The notes beneath the pieces were generated by a model. That model was not told where the DNA came from and ran no database searches. It was given only the letters and a program-made list of their open reading frames with translations. The translations under genes were made by a program, and so were the position numbers. 64,000 bases of DNA from NCBI RefSeq assembly GCF_002813425.1, contig NZ_PHUL01000001.1, positions 1,871,001-1,935,000 on the forward strand, written 5' to 3'. Position 1 is the first letter of the stretch; every line of letters starts with the position of its first letter. This document shows positions 45,037-64,000 of the stretch, in pieces. Origin of the DNA: Cellulophaga sp. RHA19. Its GTDB lineage: Bacteria > Bacteroidota > Bacteroidia > Flavobacteriales > Flavobacteriaceae.

Positions 45037-45048
45037 AAAGAGTTAACA

Positions 45049-45067: not shown

Positions 45068-45092
45068 ATATGTTTTATAAATAATAATAAAA

Positions 45093-45118
45093 ACCGGTGA
45101 TTTTTTACATCACCGGTA
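45093..45118 (-). terminator. Terminator after the fasciclin gene
   Basis: ACCGGTGAT and ATCACCGGT form a nine-pair stem. On the minus strand it is followed by TTTTTATTATT, so it ends fasciclin mRNA before crtI, at least partly. Confidence 0.75.
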
Positions 45119-45162
45119 CAACAACCAAATTAACCTAACCAACAGGCTAATTTTATCTCAAA

Positions 45163-47211: not shown

Positions 47212-47236
47212 ATTAAGTTTGATTCTTTTTTTAAGT

Positions 47237-47244
47237 TATTTTTG
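47237..47244 (+). promoter_or_regulatory. -7 box for the CarH-like regulator gene
   Basis: TATTTTTG followed by CA, an exact TAnnTTTG match, 21 nt before the ATG at 47266. It excludes the in-frame TTG at 47242 as start. Confidence 0.55.
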
Positions 47245-47265
47245 CAACTAGAAAATTTAGTTGAA

Positions 47266-48138
47266 ATGGGTAGTTATTCAATGTCTCAGGTTGCTACACT
47301 AACCGGAATTAATGCACATACCTTACGTAAGTGGGAGAGCAGGTATAATTTTGTGCAGCCAGAGCGTACAGATACAAATATTAGATATTACACAGATGAG
47401 TTGTTACGTAAATTACTTAACGTTAGTATTTTACAGCGCAATGGTTTTAAGGTGTCTAAAATTGACAAAATGTCTAATGAGGAGCTACACGCTAATGTAA
47501 CCGAGGTGTTATTAAAACCCATTGAGGGCGATGTGCTAACTGCTCTTATGTTGTGTTTGTTAGAGATGAACGAAAGAGAATTTGTTAAAATACTAGACGG
47601 GCACATATTAAACAAAGGCTTATTACAAACAGTTTCTGATTTAATTTACCCTTTTTTAAACCAAATAGGTGTTTTGTGGGGAATAGATAAGGTAATGCCT
47701 GCACAAGAGCATTTTGTGTCTAATTTAATTAGACAAAAAGTAATTGCTGGTATAGATAATTTATCATTAGCAGAGGAAGATGCATCTAAAATAGTATTAT
47801 TTTTACCAGAGAATGAACACCATGAAATAGGATTATTGTTAGCGCAATATATAGCTAAAGATTTAGGATGGAATGTGTATTACTTAGGTCAACATGTGCC
47901 TATTGAAAATTTAGAATCTGTACAAGAAATAGTAAAACCAGATTTGTTACTTACTATGTTTATAACAACAATTCCAGATAAAGTAAAAGATAAAATTGCG
48001 GCTATATTAAAGCAGACAACAGCACATTTATTAGTTGCTGGAAACCCTATTAATTTAAAAGAAAAATATTTTGAAGGGAAAACAACTTACGTGTCAAATC
48101 CAACAGAACTTATTGCTATTTTACAAGAAAGAAAATAA
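47266..48138 (+). CDS. MerR-family regulator with B12-binding domain (CarH/LitR-like)
   Basis: One-component regulator of 290 residues. The N-terminal MerR winged helix is YSMSQVATLTGINAHTLRKWESRY, with the wing NIRYYTDELLRKLLNV. A four-helix bundle (about 80-160) carries W138-x9-E148-H149, the light-sensing W-x9-EH motif of CarH photoreceptors. The Rossmann B12-binding domain (about 173-290) has E184-H-H186-E-I-G189, matching ExHxxG, whose His coordinates cobalt. In the CarH family, adenosylcobalamin-bound protein represses carotenoid genes in the dark and light releases it. It is divergent from the fasciclin-crt region, with three repeated motifs between. The position after the W holds Gly rather than the His I recall from Thermus CarH. 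Confidence 0.88.
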   Translation: MGSYSMSQVATLTGINAHTLRKWESRYNFVQPERTDTNIRYYTDELLRKLLNVSILQRNGFKVSKIDKMSNEELHANVTEVLLKPIEGDVLTALMLCLLEMNEREFVKILDGHILNKGLLQTVSDLIYPFLNQIGVLWGIDKVMPAQEHFVSNLIRQKVIAGIDNLSLAEEDASKIVLFLPENEHHEIGLLLAQYIAKDLGWNVYYLGQHVPIENLESVQEIVKPDLLLTMFITTIPDKVKDKIAAILKQTTAHLLVAGNPINLKEKYFEGKTTYVSNPTELIAILQERK

Positions 48139-48338: not shown

Positions 48339-49661
48339 ATGAAAGACTTAAAAAGTACTAAAAAGCCAGTAACAGATTCTAAAATATCTAGAAGAGGTTT
48401 TATAACCAAAACCGCCTTGGCAACAGGAGCCGTAACTATACTACCAAGACATATTTTTGGTAGAGGATTTGTTGCACCTAGTGATAGAATTAATTTAGGA
48501 TTTATTGGTTTAGGAAAACAAAGTAGAGGGTTAGCAAAGAATTTTGTTGGAGCAACAAACTCTCAAATTGTTGCTGCTTGTGATGTATGGTCAACAAAAA
48601 ACGAGTGGTTTAAAGGGGCTGTAAATGCAATATATGCAGAAAAAAGAAAACAGAATAATTACAATGGAGTTACAACTTATACAAATTACAACGAGTTACT
48701 AGACCGTAAAGATGTAGATGCTGTTGTAATTGCAACTCCAGATCATTGGCATGCAATACAGGCAATAGATGCAATGAAAGCTGGTAAAGATGTGTATTGT
48801 GAAAAACCATTAACACATAATATTAATGAAGGTATAGATTTAGTTAAAACAGTAAAAAAGACAAATAAAATATTACAAACGGGTAGTATGCAACGCTCGG
48901 GTAAAAACTTTAGACGAGCTTGTGAGTTGGTAAGAAACGGATATTTAGGAGACATAAAACAAGTTCTTGTAAATGTTGGTGACCCTGCAGTACCTTATAA
49001 TTTACAGCCAGAGACATTACCAGCAGAGGTAAACTGGAACAAGTGGTGTGGCCCAGCACCTTTATTAGGCTATAACCATAGGTTGGCACCATCTCGTAAT
49101 GATGTAGATTTTTGGCCAGATTGGAGACTTTATGAAGAAGTTGGTGGAGGTATATTATGTGACTGGGGAGCTCATATGTTTGATATTGTCCAATGGGCTT
49201 TAGGTATGGATAGGTCTGGGCCTGTAAAGTATGTTCCGCCTACAGATAAAAAAGCAGTTAAAGGTTTAAAAATGTATTATGATAATGGTGTAGAAATGAT
49301 ACATGAAGATTTTGGTAGAGGATGGGGAGTTCGTTTTATTGGGTCTAAAGGAACTATGGATATTAGCCGTAGTTATTTTGAAACTACACCTAAAAATTTG
49401 GTAAGTGCAGAGCTTACAGCTTCAGATATTAAACTGTATAATACAGAAGGAAACCATTATCAAGATTGGATTTCATCTATTAAAAACAGAACACAGCCAA
49501 TATGTGATGCAGAAACAGCTCACCGTTCAGCAACGGTTTGTAACATTGCAAATATTGCCTATAACTTAGGTAGACCATTAGATTGGGATCCTGTTAAAGA
49601 AAAGTTCTTAGGTGATAACCAGGCAAACAAAATGCGAGGCAGAAAAGAACGTAAATTTTAA
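48339..49661 (+). CDS. Tat-exported Gfo/Idh/MocA-family oxidoreductase
   Basis: NAD(P)-dependent sugar-type dehydrogenase. The twin-arginine signal is SRRGFITKTALATGAVTILP, implying export in folded form with bound cofactor. The Rossmann domain starts INLGFIGLGKQSRGLAKNF; the family EKP motif is in DVYCEKPLTH, and WCGPAPLLGYN and LCDWGAHMFDIVQWALG are typical of the exported subgroup. It is 440 residues. Such proteins act on sugars or inositols, or as glycoside-processing enzymes by a redox mechanism. It lies just upstream of the AraC gene (convergent, 19 nt apart) at the edge of the fucosidase locus and is probably part of it. Confidence 0.9.
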   Translation: MKDLKSTKKPVTDSKISRRGFITKTALATGAVTILPRHIFGRGFVAPSDRINLGFIGLGKQSRGLAKNFVGATNSQIVAACDVWSTKNEWFKGAVNAIYAEKRKQNNYNGVTTYTNYNELLDRKDVDAVVIATPDHWHAIQAIDAMKAGKDVYCEKPLTHNINEGIDLVKTVKKTNKILQTGSMQRSGKNFRRACELVRNGYLGDIKQVLVNVGDPAVPYNLQPETLPAEVNWNKWCGPAPLLGYNHRLAPSRNDVDFWPDWRLYEEVGGGILCDWGAHMFDIVQWALGMDRSGPVKYVPPTDKKAVKGLKMYYDNGVEMIHEDFGRGWGVRFIGSKGTMDISRSYFETTPKNLVSAELTASDIKLYNTEGNHYQDWISSIKNRTQPICDAETAHRSATVCNIANIAYNLGRPLDWDPVKEKFLGDNQANKMRGRKERKF

Positions 49662-49680
49662 TAAAAAATAAGTTTTACCT

Positions 49681-50550
49681 TTAAATATTCACCTGCTCCT
49701 TTCTAAAAGAAGCAGGTGTTTTTTCGGTATGCTTTTTAAATGACCTAGAGAAATAAGATACATTTTCAAAACCAACTTTTTGTGCTATTTCCTCTAAAGA
49801 GTCTTTTGTTGTTAGTAATAGTAATTGTGCGCGTTCAATTCTTTTAGATTGTATGTATTTATTGGGTCTTAATCCGTAGGTATTTAAAAATAATTTAGAA
49901 AAGTAATCTGTACTGTAGTGGCAAGTATTAGCAAGTTCTTCTATAGTAATGGGTAGGTGTAGATTTTTATTAATGTAATTTAAAATCTGATTTAAATTAG
50001 AATTAGATAAATTAATTTCTTTGGGGAGTTTTTTATTAGTTATAAAATTAGATAATAAGGTTGTTAAAATTCCTTGTGTTTCTAAAAACTCTTGAGTACT
50101 TAAATTCTCATTTTGCTTAATAAAATCTTGTAGTGTAGGTCTATTATCGTATGTTTTTGGGTCACTATTTTTAATTTCTCTGTTAGCATTTAATATAGTT
50201 AACCTTTTAAAGTAATATAGACATTGCTCACTTGCTTTAATTTCGTATTCAAAATTTTTAAAATTATATATAGATAAGCCACTATTAATTTCTTCTAAAA
50301 AACTAATATAATATTGTTCATGATAATCATCACAGATATACCTAGCATACGTAAAACTAGGTATTAAATACATGTATCCTGGTTTTAAGTGGTATACATT
50401 ATCGTTATGGTATACTCTAGCAGTTCCTTTAGTAATGTAATACATTCTTGTAAAAGGGCTAATAACGTTGTCAAAATCCCATGAAGTACCTAGTTTGGCA
50501 TACCCTGTATTAAGTAAGGTTAACCTTAAAGATTGTAGAATTTCTATCAT
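49681..50550 (-). CDS. AraC-family regulator of the saccharide locus
   Basis: One-component regulator of 289 residues. The N-terminal cupin-like region (about 1-110) has FTRMYYITKGTARVYHNDNVYHLKPGYMYLIP, the sugar-sensing type (cited by its ends). The C-terminal AraC DNA-binding domain (about 190-288) has LPITIEELANTCHYSTDYFSKLF, then DSLEEIAQKVGFENVSYFSRSFKKH and TPASFRK. It is divergent from the DUF1549/DUF1553 gene and convergent with the oxidoreductase gene. Position suggests that it controls this locus, with the inducer likely to be a sugar or oligosaccharide. Confidence 0.9.
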   Translation of the reverse strand: MIEILQSLRLTLLNTGYAKLGTSWDFDNVISPFTRMYYITKGTARVYHNDNVYHLKPGYMYLIPSFTYARYICDDYHEQYYISFLEEINSGLSIYNFKNFEYEIKASEQCLYYFKRLTILNANREIKNSDPKTYDNRPTLQDFIKQNENLSTQEFLETQGILTTLLSNFITNKKLPKEINLSNSNLNQILNYINKNLHLPITIEELANTCHYSTDYFSKLFLNTYGLRPNKYIQSKRIERAQLLLLTTKDSLEEIAQKVGFENVSYFSRSFKKHTEKTPASFRKEQVNI

Positions 50551-50774
50551 AATTAGTTTTTGCTTTTTTTAAATAGCTGATTATGTATTTTTTATAAACT
50601 AGACTCTTATCTAGACAAACAGCTTACACCACTACTAAAATATAAAATATTAATAGATTATAATACTAGATAAAAACTCAACATAACGGAAAAGTATATT
50701 TTATAGACTGATTTGGTCATTTATATAGAGGTAAGTTATTTTATTTTTGATTCGTTATTAAATTATCAATTTTT
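50551..50774. promoter_or_regulatory. Divergent regulatory region of the saccharide locus
   Basis: A 224-bp, very A/T-rich region between the AraC gene and the five-gene block. It holds an inverted pair CTAGA-N6-TCTAG (50600-50615) that runs into CTAGACAAA (50611-50619). The same nine bases occur at 48247-48255 upstream of the oxidoreductase gene. A -7 box, TATTTTTG, is at 50742-50749, 25 nt before the ATG at 50775. Confidence 0.4.
50742..50749 (+). promoter_or_regulatory. -7 box for the DUF1549/DUF1553 operon
   Basis: TATTTTTG, an exact TAnnTTTG match, 25 nt before the ATG at 50775. Confidence 0.5.
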
Positions 50775-53700
50775 ATGTTAAAAATTAAGATACCGTTAAT
50801 TTTAGGATTTGTTTTTTTGTTAATCTGTTCTTGTGGAGGTCCAGACCTACCAGAACTGGTTGCGGTTGAATATGATAAACTACCAGAGAAAGTAGATTTT
50901 AATGAACATGTAAAACCAATTTTGTCTGATAAGTGCTACTTATGTCACGGTCCAGATAAAGGAAATATTAAAGGAGGTTTACAATTACATGATGCAAGTT
51001 TTGCATATGCAGAGTTGCCAGAGTCTCCAGGGAAATTTGCAATTACACCAGGTAATTTAAAAAAGAGTGAGTTTTTTCATCGTATAATGTCTGATGATCC
51101 AGATTTAATAATGCCAGCACCAAGCTCACATTTAACATTAACAGATTATGAAAAAGCAGTTTTAATTAGGTGGATAGAAGAAGGAGCAGAGTATAAAAAA
51201 CATTGGGCTTTTTTAACCCCAGAGAAACATAAAATTCCTAAAATAGAAAATAAAGACTTAGGTGGTAATGAAATAGATAATTTTGTGTTAGCAAAATTAA
51301 AAGAAGTAAACTTAACACCATCCAAAAAAGCAGATAAAGAAATATTATTACGTAGGGCTTCTTTTGATTTAATTGGCTTACCACCAACACAACAAGAAAT
51401 AACAGACTTTTTAAAAGACAATTCTTCTAATGCTTTTGAAAAACAAATAGATAGGCTATTGGCATCTCCTCATTTTGGCGAACAAATGACATTAGATTGG
51501 ATGGATGTTTCCCGATATGCAGACACGCACGGTTATAGTAATGATAAATACAGAGATACCTCGCCGTGGAGAGATTGGGTTATTAAATCTTTTAATGAAA
51601 ATATGCCATATGATGAGTTTTTAACTTGGCAATTGGCAGGAGATCTATTTAAAAATCCAACCAGAGAGCAAAAATTAGCTACTGCTTTTAATAGGTTGCA
51701 TCCACAAAATTTAGAAGGTGGTATTATAGATGAAGAATTTAGATCTGAGTACGTTGCAGATAGGACAGCAACAGTAACACAAGGTATGTTGGGATTATCT
51801 TATGCATGTGCTAAATGTCATGATCATAAATATGACCCTATTTCTCAAAAAAACTATTACGAAATGTATAGCTTTTTTAATAATGTAGATGAAACCGGAC
51901 TAATACCTTGGGATTTAGCAACTCCTGTTCCTGCAATGATGCTACCAACTAAAGAACAAGAAGGTGTAATAGCTTATTTAGAAAAAATTGTTAACGATGC
52001 AGAAGAAAAAGTAAAAACCACTAAAAAAGTTGAGGTTAGCAAAGCAGATAAATGGCTTGCTACCAATGCGTATAAAAAAGTGCCGTTAACTGCAAAACCT
52101 AAAGGATTAATTGCTTCTTTTAATTTTGATAATAAAAAAATAATAAATGCAGTTGGTGGTAACGGAAAAAATAACATAAGAATGCGTCAGCAATTTGTTG
52201 ATAATGAAAAACCAGTATTTGGAGAAGGAGCTAGTGGAGATGGCCTTGTAATGAATGGTGATACTTGGTTAGATTTAGATAAAATAGGTATTTTTCAAAG
52301 AAACCAACCTTTTAGCATAGGTATAAAAGTGTTTATTCCAAAAGAACTAAAAGATGGGGTAATTTTTCATAAAATGAATAGCCCTGAGTTGCATAGTTTT
52401 AGAGGGTATCATTTAAAAATAAAGGATAATAAGTTAGAAGCTTTACTAGCACATGTATATCCAGATAATGCAATTGTTGTAGAGTCATTAAACAATGTTC
52501 CTAAAGATAAATGGGTGCAGTTAACTATGACATATGATGGTTCTAGTAAAGCAAAAGGAGTAGCTATTTATGTAGACGGGGAAAAGCAACAAACTAAAGC
52601 TGTTTTTGATAATTTGTATAAAGACATCATTTTTCATGAAATAAGGTTGTATGGTCCTAAAAGTGAAAAATTAGAACCTGGTTTACGTATAGGTGCAGTC
52701 TGGAGAGGAAAGGGTATTAAAGATGCTATTATTGATGACTTTTTAGTTTTTAACAAAGAGTTAAGTGAAATAGAAGTAATGCAAATTGCAAATCCTGATG
52801 CTTTAGAGAACATTAAAGAAAAAAGTGTTGAAAATTTATCTGATAAGGAAAAACAAAAGTTTATAGAGTATTATTTATCAGCCAACTCATTAGCCTATAA
52901 TAATGTTCTTAAAAAGTTAGAAAAAGATAGGCTAGCTTTAGTAGATAGTATAGACCCTATTAAGCAAATTATGGTTATGAAAGAGAGTAAGCATAATAGG
53001 CAAACCTACATTCTAGATCGTGGAAATTATGATTCGCCAACAGATTCTGTTTTTCCAAATGTACCCGAGGATATTTTTGCTTGGAAAAAAGAGTGGCCAA
53101 AAAATAGACTTGGCTTAGCCAAATGGATAACGCATAAAAACAACCCGCTTACTTCTAGAGTTACTGTTAATAGATATTGGCAAAACCTTTTTGGGAATGG
53201 TCTTGTAGTTAGTTCAGAAGATTTTGGTAATCAAGGTAATTTACCAACTCATCCTAAATTATTAGACTGGTTAGCAATTCGTTTTACAGAATCTGGATGG
53301 GATGTTAAAGCGTTATTAAAAACAATAATGATGTCTAATACATACCAACAAAGCTCTGTAATAAGTAAAGAGCTTTTAGCTGTAGACGTAGATAATAAAT
53401 GGTTGTCTCGTGGTCCGTCAACAAGACTTTCAGGAGAAATGCTGCGCGATAATGCGTTGTATGCTTCTGGTTTATTAAATGAAAAAGTAGGTGGAGAAAG
53501 TGTAAAACCATACCAGCCAGAGGGTTTATGGGAGGTAAATGGAGATACATATACACAAGATGGAGAAGAAGGTTTGTATAGGCGAAGTATGTATACCATT
53601 TGGAAAAGAACAGTTCCTAACCCAACCATTGCAACTTTTGATGCTCCTACAAGAGATTTATGCTCATCTAGAAGGCAAAAAACAAATACTCCTTTGCAGG

Positions 53701-54029
53701 CATTAGTAATTTTAAATGACCCTACATACATAGAAGCTTCAAGGGTTTTAGGTAAGTTGATGTCTAAGGAAAAAGATATAACTTCTGGTATTAATATGGC
53801 ATTTATAAGATTAACCGGTAGAAACGCAACAAAAAAGGAATTAAGCTTACTACAAAAATTACAAGAAAATGAATATCAAAAATTTAGTAGCAACACTGCC
53901 AAAACTTTAGGTTGGTTAAATACAGGAGCCTTTAAGTTAAATGAGAATGATAATAAAGCATTAATTGCAGCAAATGCAGTAGTAGCAAGTACTATTATGA
54001 ATGCAGATGCTACCATAACAAAAAGATAA
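50775..54029 (+). CDS. Planctomycete-type cytochrome lipoprotein (PSCyt1-DUF1549-LamG-DUF1553)
   Basis: A large envelope protein of 1084 residues. Lipobox CSCG (Cys20). The first heme motif is C54-Y-L-C-H58 in a PSCyt1 domain (FNEHVKPILSDKCYLCHGPDKG cited by its middle). DUF1549 (about 160-370) contains the second heme motif, C345-AKC-H349, in ACAKCHDHKYDP. A LamG/concanavalin-like region (about 440-680) has VQLTMTYDGSSKAKGVAIYVDG. DUF1553 (about 770-1040) has NPLTSRVTVNRYWQNLFG and TPLQALVILNDPTY. The family is best known from Planctomycetes and Verrucomicrobia, where its role is unresolved. It is first in a block of five genes leading to a GH29 fucosidase. Confidence 0.92.
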   Translation: MLKIKIPLILGFVFLLICSCGGPDLPELVAVEYDKLPEKVDFNEHVKPILSDKCYLCHGPDKGNIKGGLQLHDASFAYAELPESPGKFAITPGNLKKSEFFHRIMSDDPDLIMPAPSSHLTLTDYEKAVLIRWIEEGAEYKKHWAFLTPEKHKIPKIENKDLGGNEIDNFVLAKLKEVNLTPSKKADKEILLRRASFDLIGLPPTQQEITDFLKDNSSNAFEKQIDRLLASPHFGEQMTLDWMDVSRYADTHGYSNDKYRDTSPWRDWVIKSFNENMPYDEFLTWQLAGDLFKNPTREQKLATAFNRLHPQNLEGGIIDEEFRSEYVADRTATVTQGMLGLSYACAKCHDHKYDPISQKNYYEMYSFFNNVDETGLIPWDLATPVPAMMLPTKEQEGVIAYLEKIVNDAEEKVKTTKKVEVSKADKWLATNAYKKVPLTAKPKGLIASFNFDNKKIINAVGGNGKNNIRMRQQFVDNEKPVFGEGASGDGLVMNGDTWLDLDKIGIFQRNQPFSIGIKVFIPKELKDGVIFHKMNSPELHSFRGYHLKIKDNKLEALLAHVYPDNAIVVESLNNVPKDKWVQLTMTYDGSSKAKGVAIYVDGEKQQTKAVFDNLYKDIIFHEIRLYGPKSEKLEPGLRIGAVWRGKGIKDAIIDDFLVFNKELSEIEVMQIANPDALENIKEKSVENLSDKEKQKFIEYYLSANSLAYNNVLKKLEKDRLALVDSIDPIKQIMVMKESKHNRQTYILDRGNYDSPTDSVFPNVPEDIFAWKKEWPKNRLGLAKWITHKNNPLTSRVTVNRYWQNLFGNGLVVSSEDFGNQGNLPTHPKLLDWLAIRFTESGWDVKALLKTIMMSNTYQQSSVISKELLAVDVDNKWLSRGPSTRLSGEMLRDNALYASGLLNEKVGGESVKPYQPEGLWEVNGDTYTQDGEEGLYRRSMYTIWKRTVPNPTIATFDAPTRDLCSSRRQKTNTPLQALVILNDPTYIEASRVLGKLMSKEKDITSGINMAFIRLTGRNATKKELSLLQKLQENEYQKFSSNTAKTLGWLNTGAFKLNENDNKALIAANAVVASTIMNADATITKR

Positions 54030-54054
54030 ATATTAACCTTAAAAGAATAAGAAT

Positions 54055-55569
54055 ATGTGTAATAATCATCACCATAAATTAAGGTCTAATAATAAAGATT
54101 TACAAGAAATTGAAAAGCAAGTAGACCGTAGAGACTTTTTAAAGAAAACATCTTTAGGAATAGGTGCTTTAGCATTGGGTAGCTTATTGGGTGCAGATAA
54201 AATGTTTGCTTCCTTAAATAAAAATAGCACTCCAGAAGAAATATTAAGTACCTATAACAAAAACAGATTAGGTTTGCCACACCATTTGCCAAAGGCAAAG
54301 AGAATCATTTATCTGTTTCAGAGTGGAGGTCCTTCACAAATGGATTTGTTTGATTATAAACCAAAACTGTCAGATATGTTTGGTAAAGAGTTGCCAGATT
54401 CTATTATGAGTGGTCAACGCTTAACAGGTATGAGTGGTAACCAAAGTACATTGCCCATTGCACCTTCTACATTTAATTTTAAACAATACGGAGAGTCTAG
54501 AGCGTGGGTTAGTGACGCTATGCCTTATTTGTCTGAAGTTGTAGACGACTTATGTTTTATTAAAGGGATGCAAACAGATCAAATAAACCATACGCCTGCT
54601 ATTACTTTTATGCAAACGGGTAACCAATTACCTGGCAGACCATCTATTGGTTCATGGCTAAGTTATGGTCTAGGATCAGATAATGAAAACCTACCTACAT
54701 TTATAACTTTGGTTTCTAAAAACGGAAAAGGACAGCCTTTAAAATCTAGTTTATGGGGTAATGGCTTTTTACCAACAGAGCACCAAGGTGTACAGTTTAG
54801 ATCTGGTAAAGATCCTGTGTTGTATTTAAGCGATCCAGAAAATTACGATGGTAAAGATCGTAGACATATGTTAGATTATTTAGGTGATTTAAATGACTTG
54901 CAAAAAGATGCTTACGGCGACCCAGAAATTCAAGCAAGAATGTCTCAGTATGAAATGGCTTTTAAAATGCAAACTTCAGTACCAGAAGTTTCAGATTTAT
55001 CAGACGAGTCAGACAGTACTTTTGAAATGTATGGTAAAGATAGTAGAGATCCAGGGACGTATGCAGCAAACTGTTTAATGGCAAGGAAACTGTTAGAAAA
55101 AGGAGTAAAGTTTGTGCAGTTGTATCACCAAGGATGGGATCAGCATAACTATTGTCCAGGAGGAGTTAAAAGTCAGTCTAAAAAAACAGACCAACCAACA
55201 GCAGCTCTAATAAAAGATTTAAAACAACGCGGAATGTTAGATGATACGTTGGTAGTATGGGGAGGCGAGTTTGGCCGTACAGTATATTCTCAAGGGCAAT
55301 TAACAAAAGAAAATTATGGTAGAGACCACCACCCAAAAGCATTTACAATGTGGATGGCAGGTGCTGGTGTAAAACCAGGTTTTTCATACGGAGAAACAGA
55401 TGATTTTAGTTACAACGTAGTAAAAGATCCTGTGCATGTACATGATTTTCACGCAACACTTTTACACTTATTTGGTGTAGACCATGAACGTTTAACATTT
55501 AAGCATCAGGGCAGACGCTATCGTTTAACAGACGTACACGGTAATGTTGTTAAAGACCTATTAACTTAA
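54055..55569 (+). CDS. DUF1501 protein with Tat signal
   Basis: DUF1501 is a sulfatase/alkaline phosphatase-like fold, usually paired with DUF1549/DUF1553 proteins. The N-terminus is His-rich (NHHHHK-like cluster), followed by a twin-arginine signal DRRDFLKKTSLGIGALALG. Family motifs seen are RIIYLFQSGGPSQMDLFDYKP, DWGGEFGRT-like VVWGGEFGRT, RDHHPKAFTMWMAGAGVKPG and VHDFHATLLHLFGVD, which place the Asp/His metal ligands of the fold. The length of 504 is normal. It is 25 nt after the cytochrome gene and 13 nt before the next, so it is co-transcribed with them. It is likely a periplasmic metal-dependent hydrolase or partner; the substrate is unknown. Confidence 0.92.
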   Translation: MCNNHHHKLRSNNKDLQEIEKQVDRRDFLKKTSLGIGALALGSLLGADKMFASLNKNSTPEEILSTYNKNRLGLPHHLPKAKRIIYLFQSGGPSQMDLFDYKPKLSDMFGKELPDSIMSGQRLTGMSGNQSTLPIAPSTFNFKQYGESRAWVSDAMPYLSEVVDDLCFIKGMQTDQINHTPAITFMQTGNQLPGRPSIGSWLSYGLGSDNENLPTFITLVSKNGKGQPLKSSLWGNGFLPTEHQGVQFRSGKDPVLYLSDPENYDGKDRRHMLDYLGDLNDLQKDAYGDPEIQARMSQYEMAFKMQTSVPEVSDLSDESDSTFEMYGKDSRDPGTYAANCLMARKLLEKGVKFVQLYHQGWDQHNYCPGGVKSQSKKTDQPTAALIKDLKQRGMLDDTLVVWGGEFGRTVYSQGQLTKENYGRDHHPKAFTMWMAGAGVKPGFSYGETDDFSYNVVKDPVHVHDFHATLLHLFGVDHERLTFKHQGRRYRLTDVHGNVVKDLLT

Positions 55570-55582
55570 ACCAAACAAAAAA

Positions 55583-56689
55583 ATGTCAACCAGAAGAAAT
55601 TTTATAAAAAACACAGCTATAGCAAGTGCCGTAGTTGCAGCTACACCTACTATGGGTTTTTCAATACTTAAAAAAAGTAAACCAGAGCAAACTATTTTAG
55701 GTCACGGAGATTATACCTATAAAGTGCATAATAATTGGGCACAGATAAGTGCAGTGCACAACCCATTGCTTAACTGCCATGAAATGGAAATGGATAGTAA
55801 AGGTAGACTTATAATGATTGGTGACCATACCAAAAATAATATTGTAATTTTTGATAAGTCTGGTAAGGTTTTAGATGCTTGGGGAACAGCTTATCCGGGT
55901 GGTCATGGGCTTACTATATCTAATGAAGGTGGTGAAGATTTTCTTTTTTTAGCAGATTCTGGTTGGTACTTAAACAAAACAGGAAAATGGATAAAGCACA
56001 ATGGTAGAATAACAAAAACGACTACAGATGGTAAAGTTCTTTTTGATATTGGTCATCCGCAAACTATAGGTGTATATGAGCCAGGTGAAAATTTTTGTCC
56101 TACAGAAATAGCCATAGGTCCTAACGGAGATATTTATGTGGCAGATGGGTACGGACAAGATTATATTTTACAATACAATTACAAAGGAGAGTTTATTAGG
56201 CGTTGGGGAGGTCATAACAACACCAATACAGATTATAATTTGCAAAATGCACATGGTGTAGCTATAGATTATAGAGATAAAAACAAACCAATGGTGGTTT
56301 GTACATCTAGGAACGAGCAGTGTTTTAAATGGTTTACCTTAAATGGTGTATATGTTAAAACATTAAAACTACCTAATATGCAGGTGTGCAGACCTGTTTT
56401 TGATGATACTAATTTATATGCTGGTGTTTGCTGGTCACAACCAAAAGTTGGTAAAACTAATTGGAAAGATCACACTGGTTTTGTTACTATTTTAGAGAAC
56501 GATAAAGTAGTTTCTAATCCTGGAGGTACAGAGCCAGAATACATAAAAGGAGAACTTCAAAAATCATATCAACTAAAAAACAAACCAATTTTACACGGTC
56601 ATGATGTGTGCGTAGACGAAGATAAAAACCTCTACATATGTCAATGGAATGCAAATAAAACGGCTCCAATAAAATTAGAGCGCGTTTAA
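55583..56689 (+). CDS. Tat-exported NHL-repeat/six-bladed propeller protein
   Basis: Signal STRRNFIKNTAIASAVVAA has the twin-arginine pattern. The rest is a beta-propeller made of NHL-like repeats: HEMEMDSKGRLIMIGDHTKNN, PTEIAIGPNGDIYVADGYGQDYI, HGVAIDYRDKNKPMVV and HDVCVDEDKNLYICQWN. It is 368 residues, about six blades. This kind of protein resembles peptidyl-alpha-hydroxyglycine lyase and other metal-binding propellers, but no specific active site is sure. It is tightly spaced within the five-gene block. Confidence 0.85.
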   Translation: MSTRRNFIKNTAIASAVVAATPTMGFSILKKSKPEQTILGHGDYTYKVHNNWAQISAVHNPLLNCHEMEMDSKGRLIMIGDHTKNNIVIFDKSGKVLDAWGTAYPGGHGLTISNEGGEDFLFLADSGWYLNKTGKWIKHNGRITKTTTDGKVLFDIGHPQTIGVYEPGENFCPTEIAIGPNGDIYVADGYGQDYILQYNYKGEFIRRWGGHNNTNTDYNLQNAHGVAIDYRDKNKPMVVCTSRNEQCFKWFTLNGVYVKTLKLPNMQVCRPVFDDTNLYAGVCWSQPKVGKTNWKDHTGFVTILENDKVVSNPGGTEPEYIKGELQKSYQLKNKPILHGHDVCVDEDKNLYICQWNANKTAPIKLERV

Positions 56690-56705
56690 AAATTAAAAAA
56701 TAAAA

Positions 56706-58094
56706 ATGGAAAATAGTGTCCCAGATTTTGTATTGTTTTTAGGTAGGTTTCATCCGCTTGTGGTGCATTTGCCTATTGGTTTTTTATTATTTGCCTTTAT
56801 ACTTGAGGTTTTTAGTAGAGTTAAAAAAAATCCTGTTTTAACAGCAGGTATACCGTTAGCATTACTTCTTGGAGGAATAAGTGCTTTGGTTGCTTGTATT
56901 TTAGGGTATATGTTATCATTAAGTGGAGATTATGATGAAAATGCTTTAGATGCTCACTTTTGGTTTGGAGTAGCAACAACAGCATTGGCTTTTTTAGCTT
57001 GGTTAATTAGGATTGAAAAAATAAAATTATCAAACTATAAAAAAATACAACCCAATATAGCAGCACTTACGTTGCTTGTTATTGTTATAAGTGTAACGGG
57101 TCATTATGGAGGTAACCTTACCCATGGAAGTGATTATTTGGTAAAATATGCACCATTTAATACCAATGAAAAAACAGAATTAGCAGCAGTTACTAAGGTA
57201 GAAGATGCTGAGGTTTATGGCCATTTAGTAGCACCAATTTTAGAGAATAAATGTATTAGTTGTCATAACGATAGTAAAAAAAAGGGAGGATTATCTTTGG
57301 TAGATAGTTTGTCTATGCACAGCGGTGGTAAAAATGGGGCTATTTTGGTTCCGGGTAATGCAGATGCGTCTGAGTTGGTAAAAAGGGTTTTATTGGATCC
57401 TCACAGTGAAGATTTTATGCCACCAGAAGGCAAAACTCCTTTAACTGAAGAAGAAATAGCAATTGTAACATACTGGATAAATAGTTCTAATGCAGGTTTT
57501 AAAACTAAAGTTGCAAATGTAAAAACCCCAGATAATATTACAGCAATAGCAAGTACAATGCTAGGTTTTAGTGCTGCTACTAATAATACAGAGGCTTTAC
57601 CAACGGTAGGTAAAGTTAGTAGTGAGTTAATATCTAGTATAGAAAAAGAAGGTTTTAAAATTAGAGAACTGGTTTTTGAGTCTAATTTGTTTGAAGTAGT
57701 ATTGGCCCCAAATACAGTAGTAGCCGGACAAGAAAATGAGTTGAAAGAAAAACTAGAAAAGCTACTGCCTATTAAAGAGAATATAATATGGCTATCTTTA
57801 GAAAATAATCAAGTAACAGACGAAAGTGTTAAGATTATAAGTAAAATTACTAATATCCAAAAACTGAAACTCAGTGGTAACCCAATATCAGATAATGCTA
57901 TTACTCATCTTTTAGAATTAAAAAATATGACCAGTGTAAACTTATTTGGTACTAAAATTACCTCTAAAAGCTTAGAGGTATTTTCTAAAATGGAAAATTT
58001 AAAATTTGCTTATGTTTGGCAAACTAGTATAGAGCAGAAAGATTTAGAAAAATATGACGCAGCAGAAATCCCTAAAATAGTTATAGGACTATAA
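56706..58094 (+). CDS. DUF2231-cytochrome-LRR membrane protein
   Basis: Three-part protein of 462 residues. The N-terminal DUF2231 membrane domain (about 1-140) has four helices and the conserved FHPLVVHLPIGF motif, whose His residues are candidate heme ligands. A PSCyt1-like domain (about 165-250) has the heme motif C183-ISC-H187 and GGLSLVD. The C-terminal part (about 360-455) holds leucine-rich-repeat-like segments (IIWLSLENNQVTDESVKIIS, LKLSGNPISDNAITHLLE). It can link heme in the membrane to a heme outside it, so it is a candidate electron carrier for the block. It lies 16 nt after the propeller gene. Confidence 0.88.
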   Translation: MENSVPDFVLFLGRFHPLVVHLPIGFLLFAFILEVFSRVKKNPVLTAGIPLALLLGGISALVACILGYMLSLSGDYDENALDAHFWFGVATTALAFLAWLIRIEKIKLSNYKKIQPNIAALTLLVIVISVTGHYGGNLTHGSDYLVKYAPFNTNEKTELAAVTKVEDAEVYGHLVAPILENKCISCHNDSKKKGGLSLVDSLSMHSGGKNGAILVPGNADASELVKRVLLDPHSEDFMPPEGKTPLTEEEIAIVTYWINSSNAGFKTKVANVKTPDNITAIASTMLGFSAATNNTEALPTVGKVSSELISSIEKEGFKIRELVFESNLFEVVLAPNTVVAGQENELKEKLEKLLPIKENIIWLSLENNQVTDESVKIISKITNIQKLKLSGNPISDNAITHLLELKNMTSVNLFGTKITSKSLEVFSKMENLKFAYVWQTSIEQKDLEKYDAAEIPKIVIGL

Positions 58095-58116
58095 CACCAA
58101 GGAATTGCAACCTACT

Positions 58117-59607
58117 ATGAAAAAAATAATATTACTAAGTGCTTATTTGGTTTTACTACTTATGGGGTGTACGTCTCAGAAAATAAAAACTGAGCTTCCA
58201 AAAACTAATTATAAATATACTGCAGATTGGGAATCACTACAAAAATATAAGGTTCCAGAGTGGTACAAAGATTTAAAATTTGGAATATATTTTCATTGGG
58301 GACCATACACTGTACCTGCATATATGAATGAATGGTACTCTAGGTGGATGTACGTAGATGGACATCCGATAAATAAATATCATAAAAAAACATATGGTAG
58401 CTTAGATGCTTTTGGTTATAAAGACTTTATACCAATGTTTAAAGCAGAAAAGTTTAATGCAGATGCTTGGGCAGATTTATTTGTAAATGCAGGCGCACAA
58501 TTTGCAGGGCCAATTGCAGAACACGCAGATGGTTTTGCAATGTGGGATAGTAAGTTAACCACTTGGGATGCCAAAGATAAAGGTCCAAAAATAGATGTTG
58601 TTGGGGCTATGGAAAAAGCCATAAAAACACGTGGTTTAAAATTTATAACAACTTATCACCGCCACTGGTTATATGCCTGGTACCCAACTTGGGATAAAAA
58701 TACAGATGCTTATACTACCAATTTTAGTGGTTTATACGGACCCAAAGTTCCTAAAGGAACTTTTGTAATGGCAAATAAACCAACAAATCCGTTACCAGAT
58801 AATGATTTTAATAAAGAGTGGTTAAATAGGTTAACAGAGTTAACAACTAAATACGATCCGGACATTGTATGGTTTGATAATAAAATGGACATTATTGATG
58901 AAGATTATAGAAAACAATTTTTAGCAAACTTTTATAACCAAGGATTAAAAAATAACAAGGAAGTTGTTGTAACCTATAAATTTAAAGATTTAGCAGTAGG
59001 CTCTGCAGTATTAGACTTAGAAAGGTCTAGAATGAGTAAAAAAAAAGATTTTACTTGGCTAACAGATGACTCTATAGATTGGAAATCTTGGAGTAATGTT
59101 CAAAATCCTAATTACAAAACAACTAACAGACTTGTAGATTTTTTAGTTGATGTGGTGAGTAAAAATGGTGCAGTTTTATTAAATATTACACCAACAGCAG
59201 AAGGAGAAATTCCTGCAGAGGTTAAAGAACGTTTGTTACAAATGGGAGCTTGGTTAAAAGTTAACGGAGAAGCTATATATGGTACAAGAACTTGGGATAT
59301 ATATGGCGAAGGGCCTGCAGAAGTTGTAGAGGGACACTTAAGTGAACATAAAAATAAAGACAATACAGAAAAAGACATTCGTTTTACAACAAAAGACGAT
59401 GTATTATACGCTACAGTTTTGGATTGGCCAAAGGATGAGGTTGTTATAAAATCTTTATCAAATAAAAAGCAAAAAATAAAACAGATACAACTTTTAGGTA
59501 GCACAGAAGATATTAGTTGGGAGCAAACGGCAATGGGTTTGGTAATACAACCATTAAAAAACAAAGTAGGTAACTATGCCTTTGTTTACAAAATAGAATT
59601 CTATTAA
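58117..59607 (+). CDS. GH29-type alpha-L-fucosidase lipoprotein
   Basis: Glycoside hydrolase of family GH29, which removes alpha-L-fucose. Lipobox MGCT (Cys18). GH29 signatures are KFGIYFHWGPYTVPAYMNEWY, EHADGFAMWDSKLTTWD (a variant of the usual H-H-D-G-F) and YDPDIVWFDNKM, whose Asp254 is the probable nucleophile. A C-terminal beta domain starts near residue 395. It is 496 residues. The ATG at 58117 is preferred over an in-frame TTG upstream. It is the last gene of the five-gene block and the only glycosidase seen, so fucose-containing glycan is the likely substrate of the locus. Confidence 0.92.
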   Translation: MKKIILLSAYLVLLLMGCTSQKIKTELPKTNYKYTADWESLQKYKVPEWYKDLKFGIYFHWGPYTVPAYMNEWYSRWMYVDGHPINKYHKKTYGSLDAFGYKDFIPMFKAEKFNADAWADLFVNAGAQFAGPIAEHADGFAMWDSKLTTWDAKDKGPKIDVVGAMEKAIKTRGLKFITTYHRHWLYAWYPTWDKNTDAYTTNFSGLYGPKVPKGTFVMANKPTNPLPDNDFNKEWLNRLTELTTKYDPDIVWFDNKMDIIDEDYRKQFLANFYNQGLKNNKEVVVTYKFKDLAVGSAVLDLERSRMSKKKDFTWLTDDSIDWKSWSNVQNPNYKTTNRLVDFLVDVVSKNGAVLLNITPTAEGEIPAEVKERLLQMGAWLKVNGEAIYGTRTWDIYGEGPAEVVEGHLSEHKNKDNTEKDIRFTTKDDVLYATVLDWPKDEVVIKSLSNKKQKIKQIQLLGSTEDISWEQTAMGLVIQPLKNKVGNYAFVYKIEFY

Positions 59608-59894
59608 AAAAACTCACTTTTTACAAAAACCGCTATTAATTCTACTTAAGTTTTATGGTGGTTTTTTGTTAGATTATCAATTTAAATAAAAATTAACTTA
59701 ATTTTTTTAAATTGACATTCTAAGTCTTGTTTTATTGTCAAAATAATATAACATCAACCATTTTGCTACCTTCAGGACGTTTTAGTTAACACTTTTTTAA
59801 GATTTTATACATATGTTTTACTTAAAAAAACATTTGTTACTACGCTTAAAGTAAATAAAATCAACATTTGTGTAACTAAACTTAAAAAACAATT
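59608..59894. promoter_or_regulatory. Intergenic region before susC
   Basis: A 287-bp, strongly A/T-rich gap. It holds a weak terminator-like pair (AAAACC and GGTTTT, 59625-59667) after the fucosidase gene and a TTGACA/TGTCAA inverted pair at 59712-59741. No exact TAnnTTTG box is seen, so the susC promoter position is open. No small gene was found in it. Confidence 0.35.
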
Positions 59895-62800
59895 ATGGAA
59901 ATGAAATTCAATTTACTTGTTAAGTCTAGACATAAAGCTTTTTTAACTATTCTTTTTTTTGTTATAGGCTTTGGTTTGGTTCAAGCGCAAACAAAAAGCG
60001 TAAAAGGTAGTGTTACCGGAGACGGTGAACCGCTTTTAGGAGTAAGTGTGGTTGTTAAAGGAACTACTAATGGTGTAGTTACAGATTTTGATGGCAATTA
60101 CGAAATAAAGGCAGAACCTAATAGTGTACTAATATTTAGTTACATAGGTTATTTAGCACAAGAACTTAAAGTAGGTTCAAAAACCACCATTAACGTTGCT
60201 ATGAAAGAAGACATAGAGGCGTTAAAAGAAGTGGTAGTTATTGGCTATGGTGTACAAAAGAAAAGAGAAGTAACAGGAGCTGTTGCACAAGTACAGGCAG
60301 AAGATATAGAAAAAATATCTACATCAGACGTTGGTAGTGCACTGCAAGGGCAAATTGCAGGTGTAAATGTAACCTCTAGTAGTGGACAACCAGGGTCAGA
60401 TGCTGTAATACTTATTCGTGGTATTAACTCTGTTTTTGGAAGTAATTCACCATTGTATGTTGTAGATGGTATACCACAAGATGGTAACCCGCAATTAAGT
60501 GTAGCAGAGATAGAGACAATAGATGTACTTAAAGATGCAGCTTCTGCCGCAATTTATGGTACAAGAGGTTCTGCTGGTGTAATTTTAATTACAACAAAAT
60601 CTGGTAAAGTTGGTAAAATGGATATTGGTATTACCAGCTATATGGGAGCACAAGATATAGTATCTAGTGTGCCTTTAATGAATTTTGAAGATTCTATGTA
60701 CAGTCAGTTTGTAAGGTTAAATAATATTAACGGCACTTTTCCCAATAACTCTTTTACAACACTAGAGCAAAACCGTTATGATTTTACCAATAACACTAAC
60801 TTAATGGATATTCTTCAGAATGATATGGCTTTAATTCAAAATCATAATCTTAATATCTCTGGAGGTAAAGAAGGGTTACGCTTTAATGTATCTGTAAATT
60901 ATTTTGATCAAGAAGGTTCTTTAATCAACTCAGGTCTAGAAAGATTAAATGTAAGAGCAAATACAACATACAAAAAGGGCAAATGGACATTTACAACTGG
61001 TATAGGTTTAAGAACTGATGAGCAAGAGTATACACCATGGCAAATACTATTAGATGGGTATAGGTACAAACCTTATCAGCAGCTTATAGACCCTAGTGCA
61101 CCAACGGTAGATGATAGTGCAGGTGCACCAAATAGTAATGACGCAACTAACTTAAGTTTTTTAATGTCAAAGCTTAAGCAGTCTGATGTTAGAAATGGAG
61201 ATAATTTTGATGCTCGTATGCAAATAGATCATCAACTACTTTCTAGTGTAAAACTTACAACAAGAGCTTCAATAAGCAGAACTAACAATACACGTGTTAG
61301 AATTAATCCTTTATTTACAGCATATTCTGTAGAGGGAGATTTAATTCCTCAACAAGTAAGATCTGGTGTGTATAACCAAAGTGATAGATCTACTAGTGCA
61401 ACTATAGATGGTATAGCAACTTTTAATAAAACATATGGAGACCACCATGTAACTTTAGTAGGAGCATTAAGTGCAGAAAAATACACTTACGATTCTTTCT
61501 TTGCTCAAAAGTTTGATCTTTTTAATAATGAAGTTACCAACTTAAATGGTGCAACTTTAGATGCTAATGTAGGAACGGGTAACGGTTATGGGCAAGATAG
61601 AACCAATACGTTAATTGGTATGCTTGGACGTTTACAGTATGATTATAAAGGTAAATATTTAATAAGCGCCAGTTTAAGGCGAGATGGTACTAGTCGTTTT
61701 TCTGAAGAAAATAGATGGATATATGCCCCTTCTGCATCTGCAGCTTGGATTGTATCAGACGAAGAAGGATGGGATAAAGTTTTTGGAAAAACTTTCAATT
61801 TCTTTAAAATGAGATTTAGTTATGGTACAACTGGTAACCAAAGTATTTTAGATTATAGTACAGCACCAACTATAGGGTTAGGACATGATTATGTTTTTGG
61901 TACGGGATCAAATCAGGTATTGGTTTTAGGAGCTATACAAGAAGCATTTAAAAACCCTAAAGCAAAATGGGAGAAGAAAATAGAGAAGAACTTTGGTATG
62001 GAGTTCGGTTTCTTTAATAATAAACTTACCCTAACTAGTGAGGTTTATGACGGGTCTAGAACAAATATGCTGTTTCCTGTTATTTTACCACCAACTGTTG
62101 GTGGAGGTAACAACTCTAGCGTAATATTAAATGTTGGCGATATGCGTAACTATGGTACAGAATGGAGTGCTAGTTACAAACACAAAGGAAAGTTTAGTTG
62201 GAACGTTTCAGCTAACTATTCTAAAAATGAAAATAGAATAACAAGAATGAGTGATTCTAATAAGTTTTCATTTTTAGGAGGTAGTCAAGTAGCTCCAGGT
62301 TTACCAGGAGAAGATTTAGTAACAGCTCTTAGAGAAGGGTATGAAGCTGGTGCATTCTTTTTAGTAGAAACAGATGGACTGGTAACAACACAAGCAGAAT
62401 TAGATGAGTACAGACAGTTAGATCCTACTGCAAATTTAGGAGATCTTAGGTATGTAGATCAGCCAACAGTAGATACCAATAACGACGGTATAGCCGATGC
62501 TGGAGATGGAGAAATTACATTAGATGATAGAGTCTATAAAGGTAGTGGAGCTCCAGAGTATGAGTTAGGTTTAAACCTAAATGCTAACTATAAAAATATA
62601 GATTTTTCTATGAATTGGTATGCAGCAATAGGAGGAGAAATTATTAATGGTAGTAAGGCATACGCATATAAGCAAGGTACGCACCAAGACTTAGTTCATC
62701 AATGGACACTTTCAAATCCAACTTCAACTGTTCCTGCAGACAGAGGCAGAGATCATTTTAATTATAGAGGATATACAGATTACTGGCTACAAGACGGAAG

Positions 62801-63035
62801 TTTTGGAAGATTAAGAAATGTAACTCTAGGGTATACTTTACCTAAAAAATTAAATGAAAAGCTTAATATTAATAAATTAAGATTTTACATAGCAGCAGAT
62901 AACCTATTAACTATTACAGGTTATGATGGTTTTGATCCAGAAATTGGAAATGACGGATTAAGTACTCGTGGTATTGATGCAGGTGTTTATCCAATAAGCA
63001 CACAGTACAGAGCTGGTATTGAATTTAAATTTTAA
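59895..63035 (+). CDS. SusC/RagA-family TonB-linked outer-membrane protein
   Basis: TonB-dependent outer-membrane channel for oligosaccharide import. Signal peptide ending GFGLVQAQ (about residue 32). A CarboxypepD_reg-like domain follows (KSVKGSVTGDGEPLLGVSVVVKG, about 34-110), then the TonB box region EVVVIGYG and a plug domain (GQIAGVNVTSSSGQPGSD, YVVDGIPQDGNP, IYGTRGSAGVILITTKSG). The beta barrel ends with YRAGIEFKF, where the terminal Phe is the outer-membrane signal. The length of 1046 is normal. Its start is used at 59895. It is followed after 17 nt by the SusD gene, with which it forms the uptake complex. Confidence 0.95.
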   Translation: MEMKFNLLVKSRHKAFLTILFFVIGFGLVQAQTKSVKGSVTGDGEPLLGVSVVVKGTTNGVVTDFDGNYEIKAEPNSVLIFSYIGYLAQELKVGSKTTINVAMKEDIEALKEVVVIGYGVQKKREVTGAVAQVQAEDIEKISTSDVGSALQGQIAGVNVTSSSGQPGSDAVILIRGINSVFGSNSPLYVVDGIPQDGNPQLSVAEIETIDVLKDAASAAIYGTRGSAGVILITTKSGKVGKMDIGITSYMGAQDIVSSVPLMNFEDSMYSQFVRLNNINGTFPNNSFTTLEQNRYDFTNNTNLMDILQNDMALIQNHNLNISGGKEGLRFNVSVNYFDQEGSLINSGLERLNVRANTTYKKGKWTFTTGIGLRTDEQEYTPWQILLDGYRYKPYQQLIDPSAPTVDDSAGAPNSNDATNLSFLMSKLKQSDVRNGDNFDARMQIDHQLLSSVKLTTRASISRTNNTRVRINPLFTAYSVEGDLIPQQVRSGVYNQSDRSTSATIDGIATFNKTYGDHHVTLVGALSAEKYTYDSFFAQKFDLFNNEVTNLNGATLDANVGTGNGYGQDRTNTLIGMLGRLQYDYKGKYLISASLRRDGTSRFSEENRWIYAPSASAAWIVSDEEGWDKVFGKTFNFFKMRFSYGTTGNQSILDYSTAPTIGLGHDYVFGTGSNQVLVLGAIQEAFKNPKAKWEKKIEKNFGMEFGFFNNKLTLTSEVYDGSRTNMLFPVILPPTVGGGNNSSVILNVGDMRNYGTEWSASYKHKGKFSWNVSANYSKNENRITRMSDSNKFSFLGGSQVAPGLPGEDLVTALREGYEAGAFFLVETDGLVTTQAELDEYRQLDPTANLGDLRYVDQPTVDTNNDGIADAGDGEITLDDRVYKGSGAPEYELGLNLNANYKNIDFSMNWYAAIGGEIINGSKAYAYKQGTHQDLVHQWTLSNPTSTVPADRGRDHFNYRGYTDYWLQDGSFGRLRNVTLGYTLPKKLNEKLNINKLRFYIAADNLLTITGYDGFDPEIGNDGLSTRGIDAGVYPISTQYRAGIEFKF

Positions 63036-63052
63036 TAAAAAAAGAACTAGAA

Positions 63053-64000
63053 ATGAAAAAATTAATAGTTAACAAAATAGCTGTTGCTTTACTGTGTGTT
63101 ATATGCAGTACAGCATGTTCAGATGATTATTTAGAAGAAACCAATCCTAATGAGCTATCTACAGGTAGTTTCTGGAAAAATAATGTAGATCTTAATGGAG
63201 GTTTAACTGCTGTATATAACGCTTTTAAAAATACAAGTATTTTTAATGTAGTATCAGACAATCATAGATCAGATATGAGTTGGCCAGGATTTGGTAGGCC
63301 AAACACGCAAAATTCATTTTATCTGCAAACTTTTAATGATGCAGAAAATGATATTAGAAATAAATGGTCTGCAACTTATACTGTTATTTTTAGATCAAAC
63401 CAAGTTATCTCAAACGGAGAAAGGTTAATAGCAACCTATAAGGACCAAGATAAAATAGATTTTGCAACACAAATTATTGCTCAAGCTAAATTTTTTAGAG
63501 GCATATCTTACAGTTACTTATACAATATGTATAATCAAGGTAGTGTACCAATTTTTGATTTTGTTCCAGAAGCAGAAAGTGATTTTTACCAACCATTAAG
63601 CTCTGCAAGTGAGGTTAAAGCTTTTTACTTAGCAGACTTAGAATTTGCGTATGAAAATTTACCTCCAGTCTGGGATGGTAACTCTAATATTGGTCGTGTA
63701 ACTGCAGCTGCAGCAGCGGCAGAACTAGGAAGAAGTTATTTGTATGAAGAAGATTATACAGCAGCAGAAGTTTATTTTAACGATATTATAACTAACGGAG
63801 AATACGGTAGAGCCCTTGTAGATAACATAGGAGATAATTTTTCTGAAGCTGGTGAGTTTAATTCAGAATCTATTTTAGAGGTTAGCTACTCTATTAACTT
63901 TAAATCAGAGTTAAACCCTTATGATAGTCAAAACGTATCTAATGTTTTAAGTAGAATATTTGCACCAGGAAATTTAGGAGGTTATAGAGCTTCTATGCCA
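63053..64000 (+). CDS. SusD/RagB-family lipoprotein, truncated at the window edge
   Basis: The first 316 codons are in the window and no stop is reached, so it continues to the right. Signal peptide with lipobox TACS, followed by CSDDYLEE, a surface-export signal of the type known from Flavobacterium lipoproteins. The family pattern is seen in ETNPNELSTGSFWKNNVDLNGGL, an N-terminal TPR-like helical part, and TAAAAAAELGRSYLYEEDYTAAE. It binds glycan at the cell surface above the SusC channel encoded 17 nt upstream. Its substrate is probably related to the adjacent fucosidase. Confidence 0.93.
   Translation, partial: MKKLIVNKIAVALLCVICSTACSDDYLEETNPNELSTGSFWKNNVDLNGGLTAVYNAFKNTSIFNVVSDNHRSDMSWPGFGRPNTQNSFYLQTFNDAENDIRNKWSATYTVIFRSNQVISNGERLIATYKDQDKIDFATQIIAQAKFFRGISYSYLYNMYNQGSVPIFDFVPEAESDFYQPLSSASEVKAFYLADLEFAYENLPPVWDGNSNIGRVTAAAAAAELGRSYLYEEDYTAAEVYFNDIITNGEYGRALVDNIGDNFSEAGEFNSESILEVSYSINFKSELNPYDSQNVSNVLSRIFAPGNLGGYRASMP

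Follow-up and report, generated by a model that had tools for sequence, protein, structure and literature searches.

A conserved four-gene heme module in Bacteroidota and its association with predicted agar/porphyran utilisation in Cellulophaga sp. RHA19

Introduction

What does a set of heme proteins do beside a SusCD-type polysaccharide utilisation locus? The question is raised by a 64,000-nucleotide (nt) stretch of DNA from Cellulophaga sp. RHA19 (contig NZ_PHUL01000001.1, positions 1,871,001 to 1,935,000; hereafter the window), whose genome is one contig of 3.93 Mb. From position 48,339 onwards, the window holds four consecutive genes encoding a PSCyt lipoprotein, a DUF1501 protein, an NHL beta-propeller and a DUF2231 membrane protein. 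A glycoside hydrolase (GH) gene of family GH29 and an adjacent SusC and SusD pair follow, and this pair together with glycan-active enzymes makes the region a SusCD-type utilisation locus. An earlier note on this DNA had read the whole block as an envelope redox system working on a fucose-containing glycan.

We find that the first four genes form a conserved module that can be separated from the rest. We give roughly even odds (a probability near 0.5) to the reading that it is a self-contained, exchangeable envelope heme module serving glycan loci, with the copy described here serving an agar/porphyran locus. Linking one sequence type to one polysaccharide class in cultured genera offers a direct route to the function of DUF1549, DUF1553 and DUF1501. 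If the redox chemistry is true, it would add a respiratory arm to seaweed galactan breakdown, besides hydrolysis and P450 demethylation.

Results

The four core genes stay together while their neighbours change

Scanning genome contigs for the NHL protein, we obtained 70 loci. They were retrieved by exact matches to short peptides from the NHL protein of the window and thus lean towards its close relatives; as far as recognised, they belong to Bacteroidota. Several come from close Maribacter or Cellulophaga relatives, and among named records the window NHL is most similar to the proteins from Cellulophaga fucicola (93%) and C. omnivescoria (91%). Another 38 loci, the 40 NHL matches of a 149-genome sample minus the two of the window genome, were counted apart, giving 108 labelled loci in all. 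The NHL proteins of L076 and L010, L077 and L013, L078 and L027, and L079 and L038 are identical across the two sets. We call a locus close when its NHL protein is at least 60% identical to that of the window, which holds for 47 of the 70; the other 23 are less similar.

The exact order PSCyt-DUF1501-NHL-DUF2231 is kept in 40 of the 47 close loci, all of which have DUF1501, while PSCyt is present in 45 and DUF2231 in 43. The remaining genes of the block behave differently. The window-type GH29 gene lies beside the module in only five close loci, in Cellulophaga and two Maribacter loci, and a co-directional SusC gene follows within four genes in only three, all Cellulophaga. An obligate coupling to GH29 or SusCD is thus not supported. 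The earlier note had named separate occurrence of the block's genes in relatives as a refuting condition, and the outcome is split: the core four mostly remain together, and the other genes do not. A Gfo/Idh/MocA oxidoreductase (Gfo) gene, which had been counted as part of the system, stands no more than three genes upstream of PSCyt in 11 close loci; it is a recurrent but optional partner. A divergent AraC gene within two genes of PSCyt is more frequent (31/47). Sulf1, SDR and MauG relatives are seen in seven, two and three close loci, respectively.

We also checked the association in genomes picked without regard to context. Among 149 Flavobacteriaceae genomes (NHL profile E ≤1e-40, PSCyt2 E ≤1e-20), NHL was present in 30 and PSCyt2 in 33, and all 30 were among the 33 (hypergeometric p 2e-28; the p values given here and below are not corrected for shared descent and overstate the case). 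A PSCyt2 gene lies within 6 kb of 34 of the 40 NHL genes, whereas only 34 of the 88 PSCyt2 genes have an NHL gene that close. In a 296-genome sample of the phylum, NHL was found in 37 and PSCyt2 in 38 genomes; 31 were shared and seven had PSCyt2 without NHL. Absences are not absolute, as these genome searches scored only a share of their initial candidates (for the NHL profile, at most 13 per genome in the 149-genome sample and at most six in the phylum sample).

Variants of the arrangement were noticed as well. A MauG/MbnH-like di-heme gene stands directly after the DUF2231-heme gene in L010, L032, L038, L076, L079 and L080, of which L076 and L079 are repeats of L010 and L038, respectively. 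In L065, L066, L067, L069, L071 and L084 to L086 the module is rearranged, with NHL preceding PSCyt, DUF1501 and DUF2231. Three loci of the set hold succinate dehydrogenase-like genes, as read from the sequence.

The locus likely targets a red-algal galactan

The locus continues for at least 19 kb past the window end (this downstream stretch is L003; Table 1). It encodes two GH16 proteins, one nearest to a beta-agarase and one nearest to a porphyranase, which places it among agar/porphyran utilisation loci by predicted activity. The genome also encodes a cytochrome P450 that is 66% identical to a query from L014. This query matches PDB 6g5o at 660 bits, and the alcohol dehydrogenase (ADH) neighbouring that P450 matches 8h2a (577 bits) and 8h2b (546 bits); we take these three structures to be the 6-O-methyl-galactose demethylation enzymes of the Zobellia knockout work. 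In Zobellia, knockouts of the P450 and the ADH grew poorly on 6-O-methyl-galactose (PMC10033563). The agarase-like and porphyranase-like GH16 proteins, the sulfatases, the grouping of the GH29 protein and the P450 together make a red-algal galactan the likely substrate class, rather than a fucose glycan.

If the module oxidised a fucose-containing glycan, as first proposed, the GH29 enzyme would free L-fucose. It belongs to the GH29 Pfam family, and its best PDB match, 7snk (398 bits), was deposited as an alpha-L-fucosidase. Nearly equal scores are reached by the exo-alpha-L-galactosidases 7ljj (395 bits) and 7lnp (393 bits), and the other GH29 structures stay at or below the 259 bits of 4ni3. 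The window GH29 has EHADGF at a place where EHHDGF stands in the other GH29 of the locus, a change from His to Ala that is found in six of six sequences (the window protein and its orthologues of L006, L007, L008, L019 and L064). The loss of this His may mark an altered sugar specificity. An SDR of the related locus L009 scores above the NCBIfam cut-off for L-fucose dehydrogenase, and L081 and L082 have genes 82-83% identical to it, which would favour fucose; L-fucose dehydrogenases also accept L-galactose. With the GH16 pair in the locus, and with GH29 beside the module in so few close loci, we consider a fucose-containing substrate very unlikely. The wider claim of an envelope redox system on a glycan fares better: a conserved heme/Tat (twin-arginine translocation) unit is tied to glycan loci, but its fucose part is not supported by the setting.

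The galactan association extends to whole genomes. Window-type NHL proteins, a class set at 60% identity or more before the markers were counted (a 640-bit line naming the same nine genomes was set after), occur in 9 of the 149 Flavobacteriaceae genomes. The P450 of 6-O-methyl-galactose demethylation was found in 8/9 of these and in 3/140 others (Fisher p 3e-10), and a GH117-like query gave 8/9 against 2/140 (p 8e-11). Both markers were absent (0/21) from genomes holding only other NHL types. At the level of loci, the P450 lies within about 10 kb of the module in 12 of the 47 close loci.

These numbers bear on another possibility, namely that the module merely travels with marine glycan loci while its own task in the envelope is an unrelated one, for instance in respiration or the response to stress. 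Very different genes stand beside the module types, and 23 of the 47 close loci have no agar/porphyran marker. In Rhodopirellula, moreover, a sigma factor suggested to regulate one PSD1/PSC2 protein is upregulated under three stresses (PMC2754498). A mere passenger would hardly explain the P450 distribution over genomes, the LamG domain within a core protein, or a sulfatase (at least 60% identical to that of L003:4680-6341) that stands immediately beside the module or interrupts it in 10 of the 108 loci. We judge such a role improbable and favour the module as a servant of glycan loci.

Several points weigh against a glycan-serving module of this kind. The exact four-gene order is kept in only 8 of the 23 less similar loci, and 6 of the 37 NHL genomes of the phylum sample are without a PSCyt2 match. 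An agar/porphyran marker lies within about 10 kb in only 24 of the 47 close loci, and these markers were drawn from the window locus and two of the very loci counted. One of the nine window-type genomes has neither the P450 nor the GH117-like marker. Conversely, 3 of the 11 P450-bearing and 2 of the 10 GH117-like genomes give no NHL match, so the module is not required for these traits. The AlphaFold2 (AF2) models discussed below are without cofactors, and heme and metal sites were read from motifs. Finally, a literature search that covered few subscription journals gave no published reaction for any of the four families of the module, among them the large DUF1549, DUF1553 and DUF1501 families.

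Features of the core proteins suggest an envelope electron path

CxxCH motifs occur twice in the PSCyt lipoprotein (residues 54 and 345) and once in the DUF2231 protein (residue 183), and the genome has one cytochrome-c assembly match and one TatC match. By these motifs and the assembly system, both proteins are predicted c-type cytochromes. All four PSCyt1 matches of the genome fall within its two cassettes. The lipobox of the 1084-residue lipoprotein was read by eye. Tat export had been proposed for Gfo, DUF1501 and NHL; twin-arginine motifs are readable in all three, but the NCBIfam Tat model matches DUF1501 only. Pfam confirms that a PSCyt2-PSD1 protein adjoins DUF1501, a gene pair of the Planctomycetes-Verrucomicrobia-Chlamydiae (PVC) superphylum, where DUF1501 is presumably the recurrent unknown neighbour family of PSCyt genes.

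The membrane domain of the DUF2231 protein has segments at about residues 8-40, 42-76, 83-104 and 112-136 by hydropathy. Of 62 sequences, every one has the five His and 59 have the CxxCH motif; in a 29-sequence alignment the invariant His are residues 16, 21, 84, 133 and 140. If the C-terminal heme domain is in the periplasm, these residues would lie near the periplasmic face. We infer that they may form a b-heme or metal site beside the c-heme, which would permit exchange with the quinone pool. DUF2231 is listed under electron transport chain by a computed label (PMC12828279). The proposal that the hemes act as electron carriers thus gains support, as three CxxCH motifs and five invariant membrane-domain His would fit an electron path through the envelope.

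The DUF1501 model adopts an alkaline-phosphatase/sulfatase-superfamily fold (mean predicted local distance difference test, pLDDT, 64; 134 of 504 residues below 50). Unlike sulfatases, the family lacks the formylglycine motif: C-x-[PA]-x-R was found in 0 of 70 DUF1501 proteins, whereas 39 of 40 sulfatases taken from these loci as controls have it. The site of DUF1501, if any, must therefore differ from that of sulfatases. In a profile alignment its Glu 405 stands at the position of a sulfatase metal Asp, and the next residue is Phe. Searching the PDB with the DUF1501 sequence alone yielded no firm match (best E 0.63 and 0.089). A role of DUF1501 as a formylglycine sulfatase was rejected on the motif count.

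The NHL protein has His 66, 108, 224 and 340 invariant in 38 of 38 aligned sequences. Its PDB profile matches include NHL propellers, among them the peptidyl-glycine amidating monooxygenase entry 3fvz, with TRIM-type propellers scoring higher. We take the propeller part of 3fvz to be the lyase; in the peptidyl-hydroxyglycine amidating lyase propeller, three His serve as metal ligands at the centre. The invariant His and the 3fvz match are a lead towards a metal lyase.

In the AF2 model of the PSCyt lipoprotein, low-confidence stretches include residues 53-59, 248-258, 310-317 and 940-974. The first heme motif falls within them, as do a number of invariant Asp, Arg and Cys residues, which would be compatible with a cofactor site left empty by AF2. 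The LamG domain folds as a jelly roll resembling domain 4 of AbnA. Among the matches listed from fold searches with the model, all fall on the LamG domain, and many clostridial rows share the lectin-type jelly roll. A sequence-only PDB search with the lipoprotein returned hydrazine synthase alpha at E 0.012.

Taking these features together, we propose the following scheme for the module. Oxidation of a galactan oligosaccharide or monosaccharide, once imported, would probably take place at the two-heme lipoprotein. The Tat-exported DUF1501 and NHL proteins would act with it on the same substrate, DUF1501 as a sugar-binding or metal-bearing partner and NHL as a possible metal lyase. The one c-heme of the DUF2231 protein would receive the electrons, which would then travel through the His-rich membrane domain of this protein to the quinone pool. 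Gene content and order, their conservation, the CxxCH motifs, the folds of DUF1501 and of the LamG domain and the association with agar/porphyran genes are observed; heme binding, the direction of electron flow, the substrate and the reaction are inferred.

A different chemistry would place the oxidation outside the core. LacABC uses a cytochrome c. In a comparable 3-keto-glycoside pathway, Gfo would oxidise the sugar at C3, a DUF1080 protein would cleave the 3-keto-glycoside, and the hemes would only drain electrons. DUF1080 acts with LacABC in lactose use (PMC9007349), and the window locus shares with that system a DUF1080 gene (L003:9742-10656), besides the periplasmic sugar oxidation proposed. 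The Gfo protein is related to the BT_2158 glycoside 3-dehydrogenase model of NCBIfam, but its score of 168 bits falls short of the equivalog cut-off, which is 750. Since Gfo lies near the module in only 11 and DUF1080 in only 3 of the 47 close loci, both being optional partners here, this pathway is unlikely to be the core reaction, and we prefer oxidation at the lipoprotein.

A second cassette lies near N-glycan-type genes

The same genome has a second copy of the module at about 3.69 Mb (L004:14967-19897 to L005:2773), made up of the four genes and an extra lipoprotein. It adjoins GH92-, GH20- and SusCD-like genes and a LytTR-type two-component pair, names that were read from the sequences. 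This second module type thus occurs near N-glycan-type genes. Among the B-type loci of the 149-genome sample, GH92 or GH20 relatives are nearby in 3 of 19.

By eye, the DUF2231 protein and the extra lipoprotein of this cassette end in stretches resembling the C-terminal part of the GH20-like protein next to them, to which the gene at the corresponding place in L097 gives a 27% BLAST match.

Discussion

The module has known relatives. In freshwater Verrucomicrobia, PSCyt genes were found to encode carbohydrate-binding domains and to lie near sulfatase genes, and their involvement in carbohydrate metabolism was suggested (PMC5615132). The PSCyt1-3 and PSD1-5 proteins of Planctomycetes and Verrucomicrobia resemble ours in combining PSCyt and PSD domains with the LamG family pfam13385, in their sulfatase neighbourhoods and in having a recurrent unknown gene family adjoining (PMC5615132). 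The idea of an envelope heme system for carbohydrates therefore has a precedent. Compared with what that source describes, the genes here belong to Bacteroidota, stand in a SusCD locus, form a four-gene set with NHL and DUF2231-heme proteins and have a definable substrate class.

The GH16 proteins, sulfatases and P450 of the agar/porphyran and 6-O-methyl-D-galactose loci of PMC10033563 have related enzymes near our module or at other places of the genome, and the ADH has them in related loci. They differ in that the four heme/Tat genes were not seen in the part of that paper covered, and "cytochrome c" is absent from its main text. Neither cytochrome nor heme is mentioned in the main text of PMC5613140, a Zobellia transcriptome study, that of PMC4807772 does not mention cytochrome, and in the part covered of PMC11495043 PSCyt1 is only a search term. 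We found no account of the four-gene set in the literature searched, which included few subscription journals. The present analysis adds the occurrence of the four genes as a set in Bacteroidota, their association with agar/porphyran genes both in single loci and across genomes, and another module type close to N-glycan-type genes.

A bolder reading may be entertained, which we hold only tentatively and consider doubtful as it stands. The module could represent a new class of Bacteroidota envelope complex, in which the lipoprotein, a partner of pseudo-sulfatase fold and a metal propeller oxidise or trim a glycan, for example by O-demethylation. Electrons would leave through a b/c-type DUF2231 protein, and module types would be matched to glycans such as agar/porphyran or N-glycan.

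Gene layout of the window and its downstream stretch

Pfam confirms the named genes and domains of the earlier note in their places, except that the LRR matches of the DUF2231 protein fall under the Pfam cut-offs, and SusC and SusD lie downstream on the strand of the block, as it had described. The gaps from core gene 1 to GH29 are 25, 13, 16 and 10 nt, the last becoming 22 nt if GH29 starts at an internal ATG. GH29 and SusC are separated by 287 nt, and SusC and SusD by 17 nt. Because the AraC gene, which is read from the other strand, separates Gfo from the block, Gfo is outside the co-directional run.

Table 1. Genes of the window locus and of the downstream stretch L003.
Feature	Position	Strand	Basis
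Gfo/Idh/MocA oxidoreductase, twin-arginine leader, optional module partner	48339..49661	+	Pfam
AraC-type regulator, divergent from module	49681..50550	-	Pfam
Core gene 1: lipoprotein, PSCyt1-DUF1549/PSCyt2-LamG-DUF1553/PSD1	50775..54029	+	Pfam; 1084 aa
Core gene 2: DUF1501, Tat leader	54055..55569	+	Pfam; 504 aa
Core gene 3: NHL beta-propeller, Tat-like leader	55583..56689	+	Pfam; 368 aa
Core gene 4: DUF2231 membrane domain-PSCyt1, LRR-like tail	56706..58094	+	Pfam; 462 aa
GH29	58105..59607	+	Pfam; PDB search
SusC/RagA TonB-linked transporter	59895..63035	+	TIGR04056, above cut-off
SusD, runs off window	63053..64000	+	Pfam; 600 aa, complete in L003:53-1855
SusD remainder, then lipoprotein	L003
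GH16 nearest beta-agarase B	L003		PDB 1o4z, 427 bits
GH16 nearest porphyranase B	L003		PDB 3juu, 495 bits
Three sulfatases	L003, one at L003:4680-6341
DUF5060 protein	L003
Second GH29	L003
GH43-CBM6	L003
DUF1080	L003:9742-10656
Gene taken to be GH117	L003		Pfam matches only GH43 and GH32N
Two genes read as GH28	L003		one with NCBIfam rhamnogalacturonidase and polygalacturonase matches below cut-offs

Upstream of the locus, at 39793-48138 of the window, we noticed what by sequence look like photolyase-like and carotenoid-type genes. Close to them lies a CarH-like MerR/B12-binding regulator (47242-48138), which scores 93.5 bits where the cut-off is 400. This region is a possible light-response cluster.

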